Shown piece by piece: positions 1,174 to 50,013 of a stretch of 51,825 nucleotides of DNA (positions are counted from its first letter, which is position 1; every line of letters starts with the position of its first letter). The notes beneath the pieces were generated by a model that saw only the letters and a program-made list of their open reading frames with translations, searched no databases and was not told the origin of the DNA. The DNA comes from a virus: positions 1-51,825 of IMG/VR virus record IMGVR_UViG_3300027976_004270. One strand, given 5' to 3'. Position numbers and translations under genes: made by a program.

Positions 1174-2355
1174 CTACCGCGTCTCGCCTCCATTGGCCAC
1201 AAGCGGCACGGCAGTCTCGTCGATCGGCTGCGAACACGGCGTGTTGATCGAATAGACAGCGGGTCGTCCCCGGCCAATCACCGAGTCGGCTTGGAATCGC
1301 CCCAGCCCGCCTCGTATGTATTCGCTGGACAACTCGATGCATGCCCACTTGCGCTTCAAAGACTCCGCCACCATGCCCGTCACGCAAGAGCCGCCAAAAG
1401 GATCTAGGACCATGTCGCCGGGATCGGTGAGCATACGGATGAAGTATTCTGGGAGCAGCGCCGGGAACCGGGCAGGATGAATGTCGATTCCGTTGGCTCG
1501 GCAATACTCCTGATAAGTGCCATTGCTTTCAGTGTTGGCAATAGCCAGAAGGTTGGGCGGAACCGATCCACCGTTGTCCTTGGAGAATTTGTCCGAAATA
1601 TCGTGGCCCGATGGACGCAACTTGGCCGTGTAGCCATTCTTGAGCAAGCTCTTCATCGAATCCGAGTACGGCGCAAGCACCCGCTTATTGCTGGCCTTAG
1701 GAAATGGTGTCTTCGAGAGCCACCATATGCAGTTGATCGCATCCTTCACGCGAACGCGACGGACGTTTACCCACTCGGCAGGCGATGGCAGCTTGGCCGG
1801 GTTCCACCAATAATGCTCTTGGGCCAAATGAAAGCCATATTCTTCGCAGAGCATCACCAGCAGCTTGAAATGGTATAGCGAACGGGTGGGCGAACCCGAC
1901 TTCCATGCTCCCCCAATGTCGATGACCAGGCTGCCGTTGTCTTTGAGAACACGATGAAAGCCCTCGGCGAACGGGCGAAACCATTGACAGTATTCCGCGG
2001 CGTCCTCGTTTCCATATGACTTTTTTCTGACCAGTCCGAACGGGGGCGACGTCAGGATTAGGTTGACGGAACCGGGCTTAGCTCGGTGGTGCAAATATTC
2101 GAGAGAGTTACCTTGATAAATCTTGCCGAGGTCCGTCTTGAACGCTTCACTGAACGGCCCATAGGTCTTCCCGTTTATCTTGTCGATCCGCTTCTGCTCA
2201 GGTGCAGCCGCGACCTTGTGAAGATGGCGGATGTAATCGCCGAGGGACTTGAATCCCAGGGCTTGCGATGTGAACTCCATCTCCTCTCGCTCGTTGGCGG
2301 TCAGCCTGAGGCTAGTGATGCTCTCTCGGGGCTCTGCGACGTGTGGACGACCCAT
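1174..2355 (-). CDS. Site-specific DNA methyltransferase (beta class) with N-terminal ribbon-helix-helix-like segment
   Basis: Transfers methyl from S-adenosylmethionine to an amino group on DNA (N4-cytosine or N6-adenine). Catalytic motif TSPPF lies near residues 102-106 and the AdoMet-binding DPFGGS near 318-323; catalytic motif before AdoMet motif is the beta-class order, and SPP(F/Y) is common in N4-cytosine enzymes. Residues about 11-46 (ITSLRLTANERE, then SLGDYIRHLH) look like a short strand plus two helices of a ribbon-helix-helix DNA-binding fold, which could let the enzyme regulate its own promoter. An AGAGGA ribosome site sits 6 bases before the ATG. It diverges from the HNH gene and converges on the gene at 1-1170. 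Recognition sequence unknown. Confidence 0.88.
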   Translation of the reverse strand: MGRPHVAEPRESITSLRLTANEREEMEFTSQALGFKSLGDYIRHLHKVAAAPEQKRIDKINGKTYGPFSEAFKTDLGKIYQGNSLEYLHHRAKPGSVNLILTSPPFGLVRKKSYGNEDAAEYCQWFRPFAEGFHRVLKDNGSLVIDIGGAWKSGSPTRSLYHFKLLVMLCEEYGFHLAQEHYWWNPAKLPSPAEWVNVRRVRVKDAINCIWWLSKTPFPKASNKRVLAPYSDSMKSLLKNGYTAKLRPSGHDISDKFSKDNGGSVPPNLLAIANTESNGTYQEYCRANGIDIHPARFPALLPEYFIRMLTDPGDMVLDPFGGSCVTGMVAESLKRKWACIELSSEYIRGGLGRFQADSVIGRGRPAVYSINTPCSQPIDETAVPLVANGGETR

Positions 2356-2389
2356 ATGTTCCTCTTCTTAATCGATTTTTCGCATTCAT

Positions 2390-2404
2390 TTAACTAGCAG
2401 TTAA
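2390..2404. promoter_or_regulatory. Inverted repeat between divergent methyltransferase and HNH genes
   Basis: TTAACT-agc-AGTTAA is a perfect 6-base inverted repeat, 35 bases upstream of the methyltransferase start. Its place in a divergent control region, beside a methyltransferase with a ribbon-helix-helix-like N-terminus, makes it a candidate operator. A 6-base arm is short, so chance cannot be excluded. Confidence 0.35.
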
Positions 2405-2576
2405 GTGTAATACGAAAACACACATGTCAGATCGATTTCAACAAGAGAGAGGGCCCTCTTCGCGACAGCCAGTTGTCAAAGTGGAATTCACATCGACCCA
2501 GAAGCACAAGCCCAATCTACAGATCAAGCATATTTCGCTATTACCATCTCTTCCTCACCTGAAACGCGGAGGAATC

Positions 2577-3554
2577 ATGGCCCAACTGTCCAAACTCGAG
2601 CTACGCGACAACGTACTCCAAGGCTTGCGTGGCGGCGGCTGGAGCCCATTGGTTCTGGAAGATGACCACCCCTTCTTGATCAGGGTCGTAAGCTCCGATC
2701 AAAGATCCTTTGATCTACGGGTTTACATCTGGAACTGTACGCACGGCGGTGGGAACCGGGCGGTTGACGAGTTCCGAATCCAAGTCACCAGCGCGGTCCC
2801 GCGCATTCGCCCCGAAGAAGTCACGGTCTTGCTGGGCTGGCACGAAGACACACAAGTATTCGCGGCTTGGGACATTGCGGCCCACAATGGGCAAGCTTCG
2901 TCGTCGCCTTCGGCACAAATCAAAGTGGGGACGCTCCGTGACGCCCGCCGCAACGCCTTCGCCACTCAGGTCAAGGAGAACGAAATTGTTGCGGCCTTTC
3001 GGCCAATATTTCTTGCCGACTACGCTCTTTCGAGTGCCAACCTTCACAAAACCGGTAAGGCCCAACGGGACATGGCACTGCTGAACAACCTCGACACGCT
3101 GACCGACGACGAGATCGAAGAAGTGGCCGACAAGACACGTCGCACCATCATCCGAACCATCGCAACCAAATTTCGTGCTGCCAACTTTCGAGACAACGTG
3201 CTCAGGGCCTATGGGCACAAGTGCGCCTTTTGCCAAGTCCAACTCGCTTTGTTGGACGCAGCGCACATCATTCCAGTCTCCGCTCCCAATAGCACTGACG
3301 AAATCGTCAATGGTTTAGCCCTGTGCAAACTGCACCACTTCGCATATGACAGCAATCTTGTCTCGTTCGATGAGGCATACCGTATTCAACTGAGCAAAAG
3401 GCGGCTCGACGAGCTTGTTGCCAAGGGACTTGACGGAGGATTGTCCGCATTCAAATCTAATATTGGAACATCACTGATTTTGCCTCGCAACAAAGCGCAT
3501 CATCCCAAAGCCTCATACATTGAGAAATCGCGGCTTCTCAGAGGATGGCGCTAG
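2577..3554 (+). CDS. HNH endonuclease, putative restriction enzyme
   Basis: A DNA-cutting enzyme of the HNH/beta-beta-alpha-metal family, 325 residues. The nuclease core is at the C-terminal side: C-A-F-C near residues 216-219 (zinc-type pair), AAHIIP about 14 residues later, and C-K-L-H-H near 251-255 followed by the typical YDSNLVSF tail. The N-terminal half is an unassigned specificity or regulatory region. The ATG at 2577 is chosen because GGAGG lies 4 bases upstream; the frame stays open for 51 more codons upstream, but that part shows no such site. It is transcribed away from the methyltransferase and probably forms a restriction-modification pair with it. The same architecture occurs in restriction-associated HNH proteins. 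Confidence 0.8.
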   Translation: MAQLSKLELRDNVLQGLRGGGWSPLVLEDDHPFLIRVVSSDQRSFDLRVYIWNCTHGGGNRAVDEFRIQVTSAVPRIRPEEVTVLLGWHEDTQVFAAWDIAAHNGQASSSPSAQIKVGTLRDARRNAFATQVKENEIVAAFRPIFLADYALSSANLHKTGKAQRDMALLNNLDTLTDDEIEEVADKTRRTIIRTIATKFRAANFRDNVLRAYGHKCAFCQVQLALLDAAHIIPVSAPNSTDEIVNGLALCKLHHFAYDSNLVSFDEAYRIQLSKRRLDELVAKGLDGGLSAFKSNIGTSLILPRNKAHHPKASYIEKSRLLRGWR

Positions 3555-26615: not shown

Positions 26616-29600
26616 CTATCGACGCAGCCAACTGCTTCGGATCACCCGACGGACGGTGCTCTTGGCGGGCGGTGGCCCTGAATTTCTCGCGCTTTGTGAC
26701 GGATTGGAGAAGTCAGGTACCTCAACCGCAAATACCGTCTGATCTGGCCGGTCTCCTGCAACTGCGGTTGGCGGCAGGCGCACAGTTGCGACTGTTGTGC
26801 CGTCCTGCTCTGGCCGAAGTTGCCGATCCAGTTCCAGCCAGTGACGCTCCTCGAAGCGGTCCAGTCCACTGGCCGCCGCCGCTGCTCTGGCGTACACATA
26901 ACAGTCCAGCGCCTCATTTCTCTCACGCATCTTTTGCCACTCGCGCTGGGCAAAGCCGTTGCGGTCGCGCCGGGTGATCAACTGCTCCGCGCACAGTTGC
27001 TGAACAAATTCGCTATCGACCTTGGGCAAATGCACAAACCCGCTCGGAAACATGGGCGTGGTGCCGTCACTTTCGACGTCGGCTCCCTTGCGCAGGTTGT
27101 TGTACAGCTCCAACTTGGCAATCGAGCCCACCACGGTGAACACCTTCACACCTCGGCGCAGGCGTTTGCCATTGACCGTGGCATCCACCGCAGTTGGCGT
27201 TCCCACCAGCGCAGCGCCCCGGGCGACGCCCTTGATGGCCATAAGCCTGGGGTCGCGGCAAGAGCGCACAAAGGCATAAGCCTCCTGGGTGGCGTAACCC
27301 GTATCCAAGGCAAGTCGCACCAACGGCACCAGTGCGCCCGATGCGTGCGTCCAGGACTCATCCAGAACATTTGCCAGGCCTGTCCAAACATCGGCGCGTG
27401 CCGTGTCGCCTATCAGCACGCGATGCTCAATGAGCCAGGCCTCCTTGCCTCGACCAAACGCCCAGATGGACACTTCGATGCGGTCTTTCTGCACGTCGGC
27501 ACCGCCCACCAGCAGCATGCCGCCCATGGGAATCGTGCCAACCGCGTAATCTTCCCGGCGCTCCAGCAGTCGCTGCCAGTCCGGTGCCTCACCCTCTTCG
27601 ACCCAGGTTTCACCCAATTCCGTGTTCTTGAACGTCTTGATGGCCCCGGTGGAGCCCGTCTCTTTGCTGATCGCGCTCTCCCACGCGGCGGCGATCTCCC
27701 TCCAACTGCGCCAACCGACCGGGCTGTACAGGCTCGACAAATGGAATCCCATGGTCTTGCCCGTGTTCTGCGGCGCTGTTGCCTGCCACTGGCCGTTCTC
27801 CAGCATCCAGCTTTTATGGTGCTCAGGAATAGGCTGCTCACAGGACTCACAGACATACGCCGCCGTGTCCGGTTGTGACCCCTCTGGCCCGCGCTGCCAG
27901 CGCAACCGCTCGAACCGCAGCCACTGGCGGTGGTTGCAATGCGGACAGGGAACGAAGTACCGACGCTGGTCCGATGCCTCGTACTCGCGCTCAATCGCCG
28001 ACACACCCGAGATGGTCGGCGTCGACACGATGAAAATCTTGCGCCGGGAGAAGGTGCGCGTTCTGGCCTCCGCCAGCGAGATCGCATCGCCCTCGCCCTC
28101 CACATCCAGCGGATAGCCGTCCACCTCATCCAAGAACAGGTAACGCACCGGCATCGAGCGCAGGCCCACTGCAGAGTTCGCGCCGGTCATCACCAGCACG
28201 CCGCCCCTGAATTCCTTGGCCAGGATGGTGTTGCCCGCATCCCGACTACGCGCCGGCGCGATCAGCTCGGCCAGCACGGGCGACTCTTCGATCAGCGGGT
28301 CAATGCGCTGCTTGGAGTTGCGCTTGGCCATGTCCACCGTGGGCGAGACCGCCATCATCGGTCCTGGCGCATGGTGGATAACGTAGCCGATCCAGTTGTT
28401 GCCCATTTCCGTGTTGTGGGTCGGTATCCAGCCGTTGCCACACAGGAACAGGTGGTCAGGAGAATCGACGGCGATACAACGCACAGGAACGCTGGCGACC
28501 GGTCGAATGGCAACTACGGCGCGTCTGCGGCTTTTCCATAGGCGGCCATTTTCGATCGACAGCATGCGCTGCAGCTTTCGCTGCAAGCGAAACATGGGCT
28601 CTTCCCGGTACGCAGTCCACGATACCCGCCACGCTTTGCGGCTGACAGATTCGCGCCCATTGATCAGCGTTTTCTTGGCCGCACTGGTGTAGACCGCAGG
28701 CTTGTAGCCCAGGCTACGAAGCAATTGCGCCATCGCATCGACAAGGCCCTTATCGCTATTGCCAAATTCGCACCGCGATCCATCTGGCGTGATGCTGCCA
28801 TCACTGTCCATCAGACCCCGCACCAAGTCCAGTCGCTGGCCACGGCCCGAGCGCAAGTAGGCATTGGGCACGTGCTTGTTGCACAGCAGATCGAACTTGC
28901 GCAGCAGTTTTGTGAATGGGGATGCCCAACAGCTGGCGAGCGCCAAGCCGTCATCATCCGTGATCCTGAAGGTCGGATCAATCACGACGTTGGCACACTT
29001 TCCCTTGCGCCAAACAGGCAAACGGAAATGGGCTTGAACCCCACAGTCCGCTAAATGTGCAACGATGTCGCTGTCGTCTTCGTGAACACTCAAATGATTC
29101 ATCCACGACGACCCATCTCCCAACCACAAGCCCAGGAGATAGGGGTGAATTGGAAGATCGCGGTTGGGCAGCTCAATGGGTTTGCAAACATCAATGGAAA
29201 AGCGCCAACGCTTGCCATTCGAAAATCTCTCACGCCCCACCATTTCAGCAGTGGTCGTCGTTAGCTTCTTGATGCCTGCATAGCTGTATTGCCATACCGG
29301 CCAGCGATGCTCAGCGTCGGCTACGACGCGCTCGCCGTCTTCAAATTCAATCTCGTAACAGGTGCGCTCAAACAGGATGTCTGACACACCCAGTACGCGA
29401 ACCGGCCAACCCTCGGGGTCGAACACGAAGTCTCCCTCGACGACTTCACCCATCGTGGTCCATCCTCTGGGTGTCGGTATGGGAGTTGTCAGCGCCAATG
29501 GCGCCCCCACCTGCGCGGCCTTCATGAACACCACCCGCTCCACCGGCGAGGCCGGCGACAAGCAGTCCATGATGTCCTTGAGGTACGGCGTGCGGCTGGT

Positions 29601-29759
29601 GCGCCAGCGACCAGGCTCGGCAGACGCTTTGGATGACAACATGCGGTGGCGGTCTGACCACTCTGATACGGACAACAGCGGGTCGGGAGTAAGGCCCTCG
29701 CGCCAGGCGCGATCAATTTCAACGGCGCCCTCGTAATGATCAGTCGTACTCAATTGCAT
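26616..29759 (-). CDS. Terminase large subunit (GpA family) interrupted by an intein
   Basis: 1047-residue precursor: a 684-residue terminase plus a 363-residue intein. The terminase packages DNA using an ATPase and cuts concatemers with a nuclease. Before the intein: YEGAVEIDRAWREGLTPD and VERVVFMKAAQVGA (Walker A); after it: TEMGNNWIGYVIHHAPGP. Further on are Walker B (YLFLDEVDGYPLDVEGEG), IVSTPT coupling, a Cys4 zinc site (CPHCNHRQW and CESC), then a nuclease part with VGGADVQKDRIEVSIWAFG. ATG at 29759 is preferred: only 1 base separates it from the small-subunit stop. Without splicing, the Walker A motif is disrupted and the protein should be inactive. Confidence 0.93.
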   Translation of the reverse strand: MQLSTTDHYEGAVEIDRAWREGLTPDPLLSVSEWSDRHRMLSSKASAEPGRWRTSRTPYLKDIMDCLSPASPVERVVFMKAAQVGAPLALTTPIPTPRGWTTMGEVVEGDFVFDPEGWPVRVLGVSDILFERTCYEIEFEDGERVVADAEHRWPVWQYSYAGIKKLTTTTAEMVGRERFSNGKRWRFSIDVCKPIELPNRDLPIHPYLLGLWLGDGSSWMNHLSVHEDDSDIVAHLADCGVQAHFRLPVWRKGKCANVVIDPTFRITDDDGLALASCWASPFTKLLRKFDLLCNKHVPNAYLRSGRGQRLDLVRGLMDSDGSITPDGSRCEFGNSDKGLVDAMAQLLRSLGYKPAVYTSAAKKTLINGRESVSRKAWRVSWTAYREEPMFRLQRKLQRMLSIENGRLWKSRRRAVVAIRPVASVPVRCIAVDSPDHLFLCGNGWIPTHNTEMGNNWIGYVIHHAPGPMMAVSPTVDMAKRNSKQRIDPLIEESPVLAELIAPARSRDAGNTILAKEFRGGVLVMTGANSAVGLRSMPVRYLFLDEVDGYPLDVEGEGDAISLAEARTRTFSRRKIFIVSTPTISGVSAIEREYEASDQRRYFVPCPHCNHRQWLRFERLRWQRGPEGSQPDTAAYVCESCEQPIPEHHKSWMLENGQWQATAPQNTGKTMGFHLSSLYSPVGWRSWREIAAAWESAISKETGSTGAIKTFKNTELGETWVEEGEAPDWQRLLERREDYAVGTIPMGGMLLVGGADVQKDRIEVSIWAFGRGKEAWLIEHRVLIGDTARADVWTGLANVLDESWTHASGALVPLVRLALDTGYATQEAYAFVRSCRDPRLMAIKGVARGAALVGTPTAVDATVNGKRLRRGVKVFTVVGSIAKLELYNNLRKGADVESDGTTPMFPSGFVHLPKVDSEFVQQLCAEQLITRRDRNGFAQREWQKMRERNEALDCYVYARAAAAASGLDRFEERHWLELDRQLRPEQDGTTVATVRLPPTAVAGDRPDQTVFAVEVPDFSNPSQSARNSGPPPAKSTVRRVIRSSWLRR
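28413..29501 (-). mobile_element. Class 3 intein with LAGLIDADG homing endonuclease in terminase
   Basis: Encodes precursor residues 87-449. Block A reads PLALTTPIPTPRGWTTMG, so position 1 is Pro instead of Cys/Ser. Block B is GERVVADAEHRWPV, with His at B:10 and Trp at B:12. Block F is VRCIAVDSPDHLF with Cys at F:4. Block G ends WIPTHN before extein Thr, with Thr at G:5. Trp-Cys-Thr plus a non-nucleophilic first residue is the published signature of class 3 inteins. A LAGLIDADG endonuclease is inserted: LLGLWLGDG and LVRGLMDSDG carry both catalytic Asp. The insertion sits in the ATPase Walker A, a preferred intein site. Splicing would join QVGA to TEMGNN, restoring the usual GpA motif. Confidence 0.93.
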
Positions 29760-29760
29760 T

Positions 29761-30360
29761 TCAGTCCACTCGTGCTCGCAGGTCGCCAAGTTCCTGCAAG
29801 TGCTCACGCACCGCGTTCTCCAGCGCGACGTGCATCGGGTGTGGGTCCAGTCCCAACTTGACCGCCATCTGCGCCGATACGCGCGCGGGCCAGTTCAGCC
29901 AGGCATCGCGCTCTGACCTTGCCAACTTGAATACGTGGGCGATGGCCTGTGGTCTATCCACCAGCGCGCCCTTGAGCCTGGCCAGGCGCACCTTGTTGGT
30001 TTGGGCCTTGACCACCTCGTTGACGGTGCGCGCTTGCAACAGCGATGTGCCGCTGGAGCCAGTGGATCCGCCGGAGCCACTATTTGCGCTACTGCCCAAC
30101 CCTGCTGGTGTAGCGCCGCCATTTGCCGCGTCCCGGGTCTCATTGGACGGTGCATCGGCTTGCTGGAAATTGACGGTTGCAGCGCGCTCTCGGGTTCCCT
30201 TTTTTGCGGTGTCTGTATTGCGCGCCCACTCCTGGTCTACCCGTTCGGAGTCGATGGTTCCGTCGGGCTCGGGCGTGATGCGCCCGCTGCGAATTGCCTT
30301 ATGGACTGCGGTATCGGTGACGCCCCGGTGGCGAGCGTAGGCCCGTAACGAAATTCCCAT
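29761..30360 (-). CDS. Terminase small subunit (Nu1-like)
   Basis: 199 residues. The N-terminal helix-turn-helix (LRAYARHRGVTDTAVHKAIR, with SGRITPEPDGTID) binds DNA near the packaging start; residues about 60-105 are a low-complexity Gly/Ser/Asn linker; the C-terminal helix (TVNEVVKAQTNKVRLARLKG) contacts the large subunit. The ATG at 30360 is preferred over a TTG four codons earlier. It stops 1 base before the large-subunit ATG. It is the first gene of the late minus-strand operon as visible here. Confidence 0.88.
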   Translation of the reverse strand: MGISLRAYARHRGVTDTAVHKAIRSGRITPEPDGTIDSERVDQEWARNTDTAKKGTRERAATVNFQQADAPSNETRDAANGGATPAGLGSSANSGSGGSTGSSGTSLLQARTVNEVVKAQTNKVRLARLKGALVDRPQAIAHVFKLARSERDAWLNWPARVSAQMAVKLGLDPHPMHVALENAVREHLQELGDLRARVD

Positions 30361-30460
30361 CGTTTGTTTCAATCATTTTGTTGAATCTCTGCAGATTTAG
30401 CTTGGCTTGTATTCGAAGCAGAGCGTTCATGGAGGTGTTCCAACACCAACGCAAAACCCA

Positions 30461-48158: not shown

Positions 48159-48658
48159 TGAGATCGCAAAAACCCATGCCCGCCACACCGCCATCGGTGA
48201 TGTCACAGATCGCACAGTTGCCAGAGCTGGCCATGCCCGAAATTAAATCCCTCTGGAAGAGACTTTTTCATGGCGACACGCCTACCCACAACCGGCAGTT
48301 CCTGGAACGTCGGATTGCCTACAAGTTGCAGGAGATCGAGTTTCGCAAGGTGGACCCAAACCTGCTGGATCGCAACAAGCGCCGCATTGAGTCCCTGATC
48401 GAGACAGGCAAGGTCAAGACACGCGATCCGGACTACCGCCCGATCGCTGGCACGATGCTCACCCGCGAGTACCAAGACAAGGAATACCGCGTGATCGCCA
48501 CGGCCGATGGAAATTACGACTTCGATGGCAGGATGTACCAAAGCCTGTCACAGATCGCCCGTGAAATTACCGGCACACGCTGGTCGGGGCCACTGTTCTT
48601 TGGACTCAAGACTCGGGCGGCCAAGGCTGCGCCTGCCAGGAAGGGAGTCCGGACATGA
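48158..48658 (+). CDS. DUF2924 protein of the integration module
   Basis: 166 residues. The DUF2924 pattern is present: PEIKSLWKRLFHGDTPTHNR, FLERRIAYKLQEIEF, LTREYQDKEYRVIATADGNY, the last part resembling a small strand domain (DFDGRMYQSLSQIAREITG) followed by KTRAAKAAP. In phage elements it accompanies large serine recombinases, possibly as an accessory or directionality factor. Start at 48158 overlaps the previous stop; overlaps the recombinase gene by 4 bases. Confidence 0.85.
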   Translation: MRSQKPMPATPPSVMSQIAQLPELAMPEIKSLWKRLFHGDTPTHNRQFLERRIAYKLQEIEFRKVDPNLLDRNKRRIESLIETGKVKTRDPDYRPIAGTMLTREYQDKEYRVIATADGNYDFDGRMYQSLSQIAREITGTRWSGPLFFGLKTRAAKAAPARKGVRT

Positions 48659-50013
48659 GCGAAGTTCTGAAAAGGCGGATTCGTTGCGCGGTCTACACCC
48701 GCAAGTCCAGTGAAGAAGGCCTGGACCAGGATTACAACTCCCTTGATGCCCAGCGCGACGCAGGTCACGCGTACGTGGCCAGTCAACGTGCAGAGGGCTG
48801 GACTGCGGTCGCCGATGACTACGATGATCCGGCGTTCTCGGGCGGCAACATGGAGCGACCTGCGCTCAAACGCCTGATGGCCGACATTGAGGCCGGAAAA
48901 ATCGATGTGATCGTGATCTACAAGATCGACCGCCTGACGCGCAGCCTGGCCGACTTTTCCAAGATGGTCGAGGTGTTCGAGCGCCGGGGCGTGTCATTTG
49001 TCTCGGTCACGCAGCAGTTCAACACCACCACGTCCATGGGGCGTTTGATGCTCAACGTCCTGCTGTCCTTCGCGCAGTTTGAGCGCGAGGTCACCGGGGA
49101 GCGAATCCGCGACAAGATCGCAGCCAGCAAACGCAAGGGGCTGTGGATGGGCGGCGTTCCGCCCTTGGGGTACGACGTTGAAAACCGACGATTGGTGCCC
49201 AACGTCAAGGAGGGCAAACTTATCCGTCACATCTTCCTGCGATTCGTGGAACTCGGATCAAGCACCACACTGGTCAAGGAACTCAGGCTTGACGGCGTGA
49301 CATCGAAAGCGTGGACAACCCAGGACGGCAAAGTTCGGGAGGGCAAGCCGATCGACAAGGGTTTGATCTACAAGCTACTGGGCAATCGAACCTACCTTGG
49401 AGAACTCCGCCACAAGGACCAGTGGTACCCAGCCGAACACCTTGCCCTCATCACCCCAGCGCAGTGGGACGATGTGCACGCCATATTGGCAACCAACGCC
49501 CGTGTGCGGGGCAACCACACCCGCTCGAGCACACCGTTTTTGCTCAAGGGCATCGTCTTTGGCCATGACGGGCGGGCGCTGACACCTTGGCACAGCACAA
49601 AGAAAGCGACCGGAAAGAAATACCGCTATTACCTGCCCATGCGCGAGATCAAGGAGCACGCCGGCGCGTCAGGTTTGCCGCGTCTGCCGGCAGCCGAATT
49701 GGAATCAGCGGTGCTCGACCAACTTCGTGGCATTCTGCGTTCGCCAGACTTGCTCGGCAACGTGCTGCCACTGGCGATAGCGCTGGATCCAACTCTTGAC
49801 GAAGCAAAAGTCACCGTCGCCATGACACGGCTCGACACCATATGGGACCAACTTTTTCCGGCCGAGCAGACCCGGATCGTCAGACTGCTGGTCGAAAAGG
49901 TGATCGTGTCCCCCAACAATCTTGAAGTGCGACTGCGGGCCAACGGCATCGAGCGACTGGTGCTGGAACTGCGTCCGGAAAAGGCTGAAGGCATGGATGC
50001 GGTACCGGCATGA
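48655..50013 (+). CDS. Large serine recombinase (integrase)
   Basis: 452 residues; cuts and joins att sites to insert and excise the prophage. N-terminal catalytic domain: CAVYTRKSSEEGLDQDYNSL with the nucleophilic Ser18 in Y-x-R-x-S, QFEREVTGERIRDKIAASK, then a recombinase domain (GLWMGGVPPLGYDVENRRLV) and a C-terminal tail. The usual zinc-ribbon cysteines are absent in LLKGIVFGHDGRALTPWHST, where other relatives may have them, as seems common in DUF2924-associated recombinases. Overlaps the downstream gene by 4 bases. Large serine recombinases use short core sequences, so no direct repeat is expected at the prophage ends. Confidence 0.93.
   Translation: MSEVLKRRIRCAVYTRKSSEEGLDQDYNSLDAQRDAGHAYVASQRAEGWTAVADDYDDPAFSGGNMERPALKRLMADIEAGKIDVIVIYKIDRLTRSLADFSKMVEVFERRGVSFVSVTQQFNTTTSMGRLMLNVLLSFAQFEREVTGERIRDKIAASKRKGLWMGGVPPLGYDVENRRLVPNVKEGKLIRHIFLRFVELGSSTTLVKELRLDGVTSKAWTTQDGKVREGKPIDKGLIYKLLGNRTYLGELRHKDQWYPAEHLALITPAQWDDVHAILATNARVRGNHTRSSTPFLLKGIVFGHDGRALTPWHSTKKATGKKYRYYLPMREIKEHAGASGLPRLPAAELESAVLDQLRGILRSPDLLGNVLPLAIALDPTLDEAKVTVAMTRLDTIWDQLFPAEQTRIVRLLVEKVIVSPNNLEVRLRANGIERLVLELRPEKAEGMDAVPA

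Follow-up and report, generated by a model that had tools for sequence, protein, structure and literature searches.

The phage DNA analysed here (51,825 nucleotides, the whole of which we call the window; IMG/VR record IMGVR_UViG_3300027976_004270) carries a full-length class 3 intein, which splits the P-loop of a GpA-type terminase and which, on the reading that we favour with high confidence, would splice itself out of its host protein and home by means of its LAGLIDADG nuclease. The features concerned, all encoded on the minus strand, are the following.

26616..29807, minus strand: open reading frame of the precursor of a GpA-type terminase large subunit (1063 aa, open)
29761..30372, minus strand: terminase small subunit, immediately upstream of the large-subunit gene (PHROG 57, 5.3e-34)
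29502..29759, minus strand: N-extein, 86 aa, ending ...MKAAQVGA within the Walker A motif
28413..29501, minus strand: intein, in frame, 363 aa (P1 to N363), boundaries from 80 intein-free alleles
29247..29501, minus strand: N-terminal splicing domain, intein aa 1-85 (phmmer alignment to DnaBi1 residues 2-69)
29358..29360, minus strand: Cys48, equivalent of the DnaBi1 redox-switch Cys48 (phmmer alignment)
29307..29309, minus strand: His65, block B
29301..29303, minus strand: Trp67 of the WCT motif, block B (DAEHRW), invariant in 43 GpA relatives
28602..29159, minus strand: LAGLIDADG homing endonuclease domain, about aa 115-300 (Pfam LAGLIDADG_3, 1.6e-7)
29115..29117, minus strand: Asp129, first LAGLIDADG catalytic Asp (LGLWLGDG), aligned with PI-SceI GLWIGDG
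28800..28802, minus strand: Asp234, second LAGLIDADG catalytic Asp (GLMDSDG), aligned with PI-SceI GLIDSDG
28413..28526, minus strand: C-terminal splicing domain (blocks F and G), aa 326-363 (phmmer, DnaBi1 residues 104-139)
28476..28478, minus strand: Cys342, block F (VRCIAVDS), Cys in all 54 aligned inteins, counterpart of DnaBi1 Cys118
28419..28421, minus strand: Thr361 of the WCT motif, block G (PTHN), Thr in 42 of 43 GpA relatives
26619..28412, minus strand: C-extein, 598 aa, first residues TEMGNNW, Thr+1 at 28410-28412

By its sequence the intein-bearing terminase belongs to the GpA family (phage lambda gene A type): its exteins match Pfam GpA_ATPase (PF05876, 8.4e-98) and GpA_nuclease (PF20454, 1e-91), the precursor frame matches PHROG 15 (terminase large subunit) at 1.2e-302, and lambda gpA is 29% identical over 527 aligned residues. 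Translation likely starts at the ATG at 29757-29759 (MQLSTTD), and portal and head-protease genes lie downstream. The source phage was probably temperate, with a betaproteobacterial host; a large serine recombinase at 48655-50013 (Resolvase, Recombinase and Zn_ribbon_recom domains) suggests that it integrated via a serine integrase. Elsewhere in the window, at 1174-3554, a DNA methylase gene (N6_N4_Mtase) adjoins a gene with MTaX1 and HNH_2 domains in what looks like a phage-borne restriction-modification pair, and the protein encoded at 33233-34528 matches ParB-like nuclease families in its N-terminal part and, along almost all of its length, a DNA methyltransferase family.

The intein runs from its Pro1 codon (29499-29501) to its last codon, Asn (28413-28415), through 363 codons with no stop, and its sequence (PLALTTPIPTP...GWIPTHN) is foreign to the terminase. 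A search of viral contigs with the spliced protein found 80 intein-free relatives, a set selected by likeness to that protein and hence no unbiased count of filled and empty loci. All 80 are ungapped at the insertion site (pattern ...AQ[LV]G[AK]/TE..., the slash marking the insertion point), which reads MKAAQLGATEMGSNWIGY in 66, MKAAQLGATEMGNNWIGY in nine and close variants in the remaining five, so that the intein must start with Pro, end with Asn and be followed by Thr. A preliminary description of this DNA had placed the element at 28413-29501 and proposed a search for intein-less terminase alleles as a check; these alleles fix the boundary independently, and the coordinates prove exact to the base.

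Lambda gpA carries its Walker A motif, KSARVGYS, at residue 76 (Lys76). Since MKAAQVGA/TE of the window aligns with VKSARVGYS of lambda gpA at Lys76, the intein splits the P-loop right before the final Thr, and the proposed insertion into the ATPase motif of a GpA-type terminase is thus borne out. The insertion point corresponds to the classic P-loop site of TerL1-a inteins (PMC5050341). At one intein-free locus, L031, which is 89% identical overall, the site is rewritten (MAGAQLGK/TECG vs MKAAQLGA/TEMG) and the lysine of the P-loop has apparently shifted from the motif start to the classical position; this could be a homing-resistant allele. Close GpA members seemingly show a regularity at the junction, with Pro1 after Ala or Gly and Ala1 after Lys; a rule linking position 1 to the preceding residue was nevertheless dropped, as other terminases break the pattern (GK/P in L167).

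Judged by its residues, the window intein is class 3. Pro1, Trp67, Cys342 and Thr361, the WCT signature originally noticed, are all found, together with Asp62, His65, His362, Asn363 and Thr+1, and Cys342 is predicted to be the initiating nucleophile of splicing. The best match among solved inteins is the class 3 DnaBi1 of M. smegmatis (6bs8; phmmer E=3.4e-32), and by profile the best solved relatives are the mycobacterial DnaB class 3 inteins (6bs8, 6rix; 3.5e-45). With DnaBi1 and M. chimaera DnaB1 (6rix) the window intein shares splicing-domain sequence and fold, the motif Asp62-x-x-His65-x-Trp67, the F-block Cys, the G-block Thr-His-Asn and the position of Cys48; in DnaBi1, Cys48, Asp62, His65 and Trp67 even bear the same residue numbers. 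However, both mycobacterial proteins are mini-inteins without an endonuclease, in a helicase host and with Ala1 in the solved proteins, whereas the window intein begins with Pro1, contains a complete LAGLIDADG domain and sits in a terminase.

For the endonuclease the solved counterpart is PI-SceI (1vde), likewise a splicing domain with an inserted two-motif LAGLIDADG nuclease, but of class 1, hosted by yeast VMA1 and only 14-16% identical. Intein residues 118-283 align with it at 4.5e-5 (single sequence) and 2e-17 (profile), values that together with the DnaBi1 match exclude chance. An AlphaFold2 model built on 54 sequences (one from 7 close relatives, pLDDT 43, was discarded) is confident nearly throughout (mean pLDDT 93.6) and joins the splicing fold to a two-motif LAGLIDADG enzyme like PI-SceI, which is also its top Foldseek match (E=1.2e-20); the splicing part retrieves the class 3 DnaB inteins (DnaBi1, E=4.9e-10, target TM up to 0.85). 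A search of NCBIfam gave no useful match. The catalytic aspartates, said at the outset to be retained in both motifs, are indeed kept, Asp129 and Asp234 falling on those of PI-SceI, and with two motifs and a PI-SceI-like fold the description of the endonuclease as intact holds. Where dS could be estimated, pairwise dN/dS of the endonuclease domain is about 0.05-0.13, similar to that of the splicing domain, these values being rough as many dS are saturated. The aligned aspartates and the low dN/dS indicate that the endonuclease is probably active; continued selection fits an active homing enzyme but is not proof of one.

Ramlibacter aurantiacus, a Nitrosomonadales MAG and several viral contigs have GpA terminases in which close relatives of the intein (66-93% identical) interrupt the protein at this site, and the same sequence was found again in two other IMG/VR contigs (L006 and L008). 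A profile search added a group at 60-63%, again in GpA, along with more remote inteins hosted by GpA or by other proteins. The GpA-terminase inteins of L116-L131 (IMG/VR contigs), L002 and L005 (R. aurantiacus), L003 (the Nitrosomonadales MAG) and L195 agree with that of the window in site, class and architecture and differ from it by small changes in length, being 56-79% identical (L007, 93%); as far as could be searched, no annotation or report of them was found. In R. aurantiacus, L002 and L005 are two related prophage-like regions of contig8, about 118 kb apart, each holding an intein-bearing terminase. Among 251 genomes of the Ramlibacter family surveyed, the close form occurs only in this species, the matches in the other 20 genomes being distant and mostly partial. 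A phage collection yielded 476 matching records, mostly mycobacteriophage terminases, with none among the matches listed more than 39% identical over the full length. One named isolate, Acidovorax phage ACF1, also has an intein in its GpA terminase, though this is only 36% identical to that of the window. L195 (5761-8723 of the 39.5 kb 'plasmid' CP092490 of Endozoicomonas sp. Mp262) is phage-like and bears the same kind of GpA intein at 56% identity, and shortly past the intein its terminase reading frame is disrupted, whether through mutation or through an error in sequencing.

Filled and empty alleles intermix among terminases up to 97% identical, and in an extein tree of 53 rows the window groups with one filled and three empty alleles (support 100/99), while intein presence changes state 7 times, at least 4 of these changes being forced by well-supported branches. 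The distances between inteins, however, closely track those between exteins (Mantel r 0.96, 351 pairs, 0 of 2000 permutations), so recent long-range homing is not evident; recent long-range horizontal transfer was looked for and is unsupported by this correlation. A reading in which the intein splices, the endonuclease is inactive in homing and the element passes vertically with the terminase, with occasional loss, could draw on these parallel distances and on the window and L007 inteins, whose silent-site divergence is about equal to that of their exteins. We nevertheless consider it unlikely, in view of the purifying selection acting on a nuclease that keeps both Asp and is conserved to roughly the same degree as the splicing domain, of the intermixing of empty and filled alleles, and of two pairs of loci in which inteins are much more alike than exteins (L129/L130, 94% vs 82%; L010/L116, 87% vs 77%), likely products of transfer between moderately diverged phages. 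A co-conversion tract beside the site was sought in 60-bp bins against the nearest empty alleles and none was clear, the only local drop being that in L031. Much of the distribution pattern is accounted for by prolonged vertical descent in which the intein was lost repeatedly, purifying selection on the nuclease and the intermixed alleles support intein activity, and homing is probably local, with losses; the sequences are most fairly read as the record of a long-standing association in which homing was local and losses recurred.

It is very improbable that the intein is degenerate and non-splicing, with the terminase dead or replaced: frame breaks in or after the intein do occur in L132 and L195, but in the window the frame is open, every splicing residue is intact and the exteins are fully conserved, the same sequence stands again in L006 and L008, and no second terminase was recognised among the proteins examined. 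Least credible of all is a misread boundary that would hide an intein of class 1 (or class 2), a reading that can point to the Cys1 found alongside the WCT residues in phage ACF1 (L193), but against which stand a boundary fixed by the 80 empty alleles, the absence in the window of any Cys or Ser at that position, a residue that the preliminary description had named as a refutation of its class 3 assignment and that was looked for without success, and the full WCT and DxxH set, as in DnaBi1.

In the GpA-terminase intein of L193 (460-1512), Cys1 (GK/CLDVNTP) accompanies the full Trp-Cys-Thr set and the first LAGLIDADG Asp is replaced by Asn; having two candidate nucleophiles, it may be intermediate between class 1 and class 3. 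In L009 (8620-9693 of IMGVR_UViG_3300035703_004045) the GpA terminase of a relative carries a second intein of 358 aa near the end of the nuclease domain (NEGLD/.../CYVYARAA), which starts with Cys, ends with Asn, has Cys at +1 and is thus class 1-like, and the protein gives two LAGLIDADG_3 matches; one terminase therefore holds both class 3 and class 1-like inteins.

The anatomy, boundaries and class of the window intein, its intact nuclease motifs under purifying selection and the empty and filled alleles among near-identical terminases can be read from the sequence itself; we infer splicing, cleavage, homing and a dependence of packaging on splicing. Translation would yield an inactive terminase precursor, presumably unable to hydrolyse ATP, in which the intein interrupts the ATP-binding loop between MKAAQVGA and TEMG. 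Cys342, held with His65, Trp67 and Thr361, would attack the Ala-Pro1 bond at the N-terminal junction, the chain would then be passed to Thr+1, and cyclisation of Asn363 would free the intein and leave the Walker A motif whole. Either once freed or while still unspliced, the intein could act as a LAGLIDADG nuclease on related phages, co-infecting or resident as prophages, whose terminase genes lack it, cutting them at the corresponding site, and repair of the cut allele would copy the intein in.

The window intein also retains a residue implicated in redox control of its solved relative. In DnaBi1, oxidation joins Cys48 to the catalytic Cys in a disulfide that prevents splicing, and splicing was lost with every Cys48 substitution tried; that study describes Cys48 as non-conserved (PMC6195587). 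Among the relatives of the window intein it is conserved in 53 of 54 aligned close relatives and in all 43 of the GpA type, some more distant class 3 inteins having Thr, Ser or another residue there. Near-invariance within the clade points to a general function, in splicing or in redox control, and not to the quirk of one intein, and it fits a structural need as well as a redox switch. By analogy with DnaBi1, packaging could be redox-gated, a reversible Cys48-Cys342 disulfide keeping the motor unspliced and inactive in oxidative stress and a return to reducing conditions releasing it, but we regard this as a long shot.

Class 3 inteins were already known to be pervasive in the TerL proteins of mycobacteriophages, where the carriers are only the TerL1 and TerL6 families and a TerL-like protein, and where five TerL inteins splice and two cut intein-free alleles (Kelley et al. 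2016, PMC5050341). Like the window intein, those of TerL1 and TerL6 lie in the ATPase domain of a phage terminase, several of them in the P-loop, and carry LAGLIDADG nucleases, with splicing and cutting shown for TerL ones (PMC5050341); their hosts, by contrast, are Terminase_1 and Terminase_6 proteins and not GpA, and identity is at most 39% among the matches listed. The suggestion that the combination is poorly described stands in one respect, as our literature search on inteins in gpA-type large subunits turned up no paper dedicated to GpA, though this does not prove that none exists. In other respects it does not, since class 3 terminase inteins with working endonucleases have been published (PMC5050341) and the group is common in public GpA terminases, with dozens of sequences. 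With the TerL1 and TerL6 inteins already described, the GpA host is a modest extension.

What is added is that class 3 terminase inteins with an endonuclease also occur in the P-loop of a terminase of the lambda gene A type. Near-identical intein-free alleles (for example L030 and L032) make homing and the dependence of packaging on splicing easy to test, and the location of the intein in a lambda-A-type motor likewise makes the idea of redox control testable.
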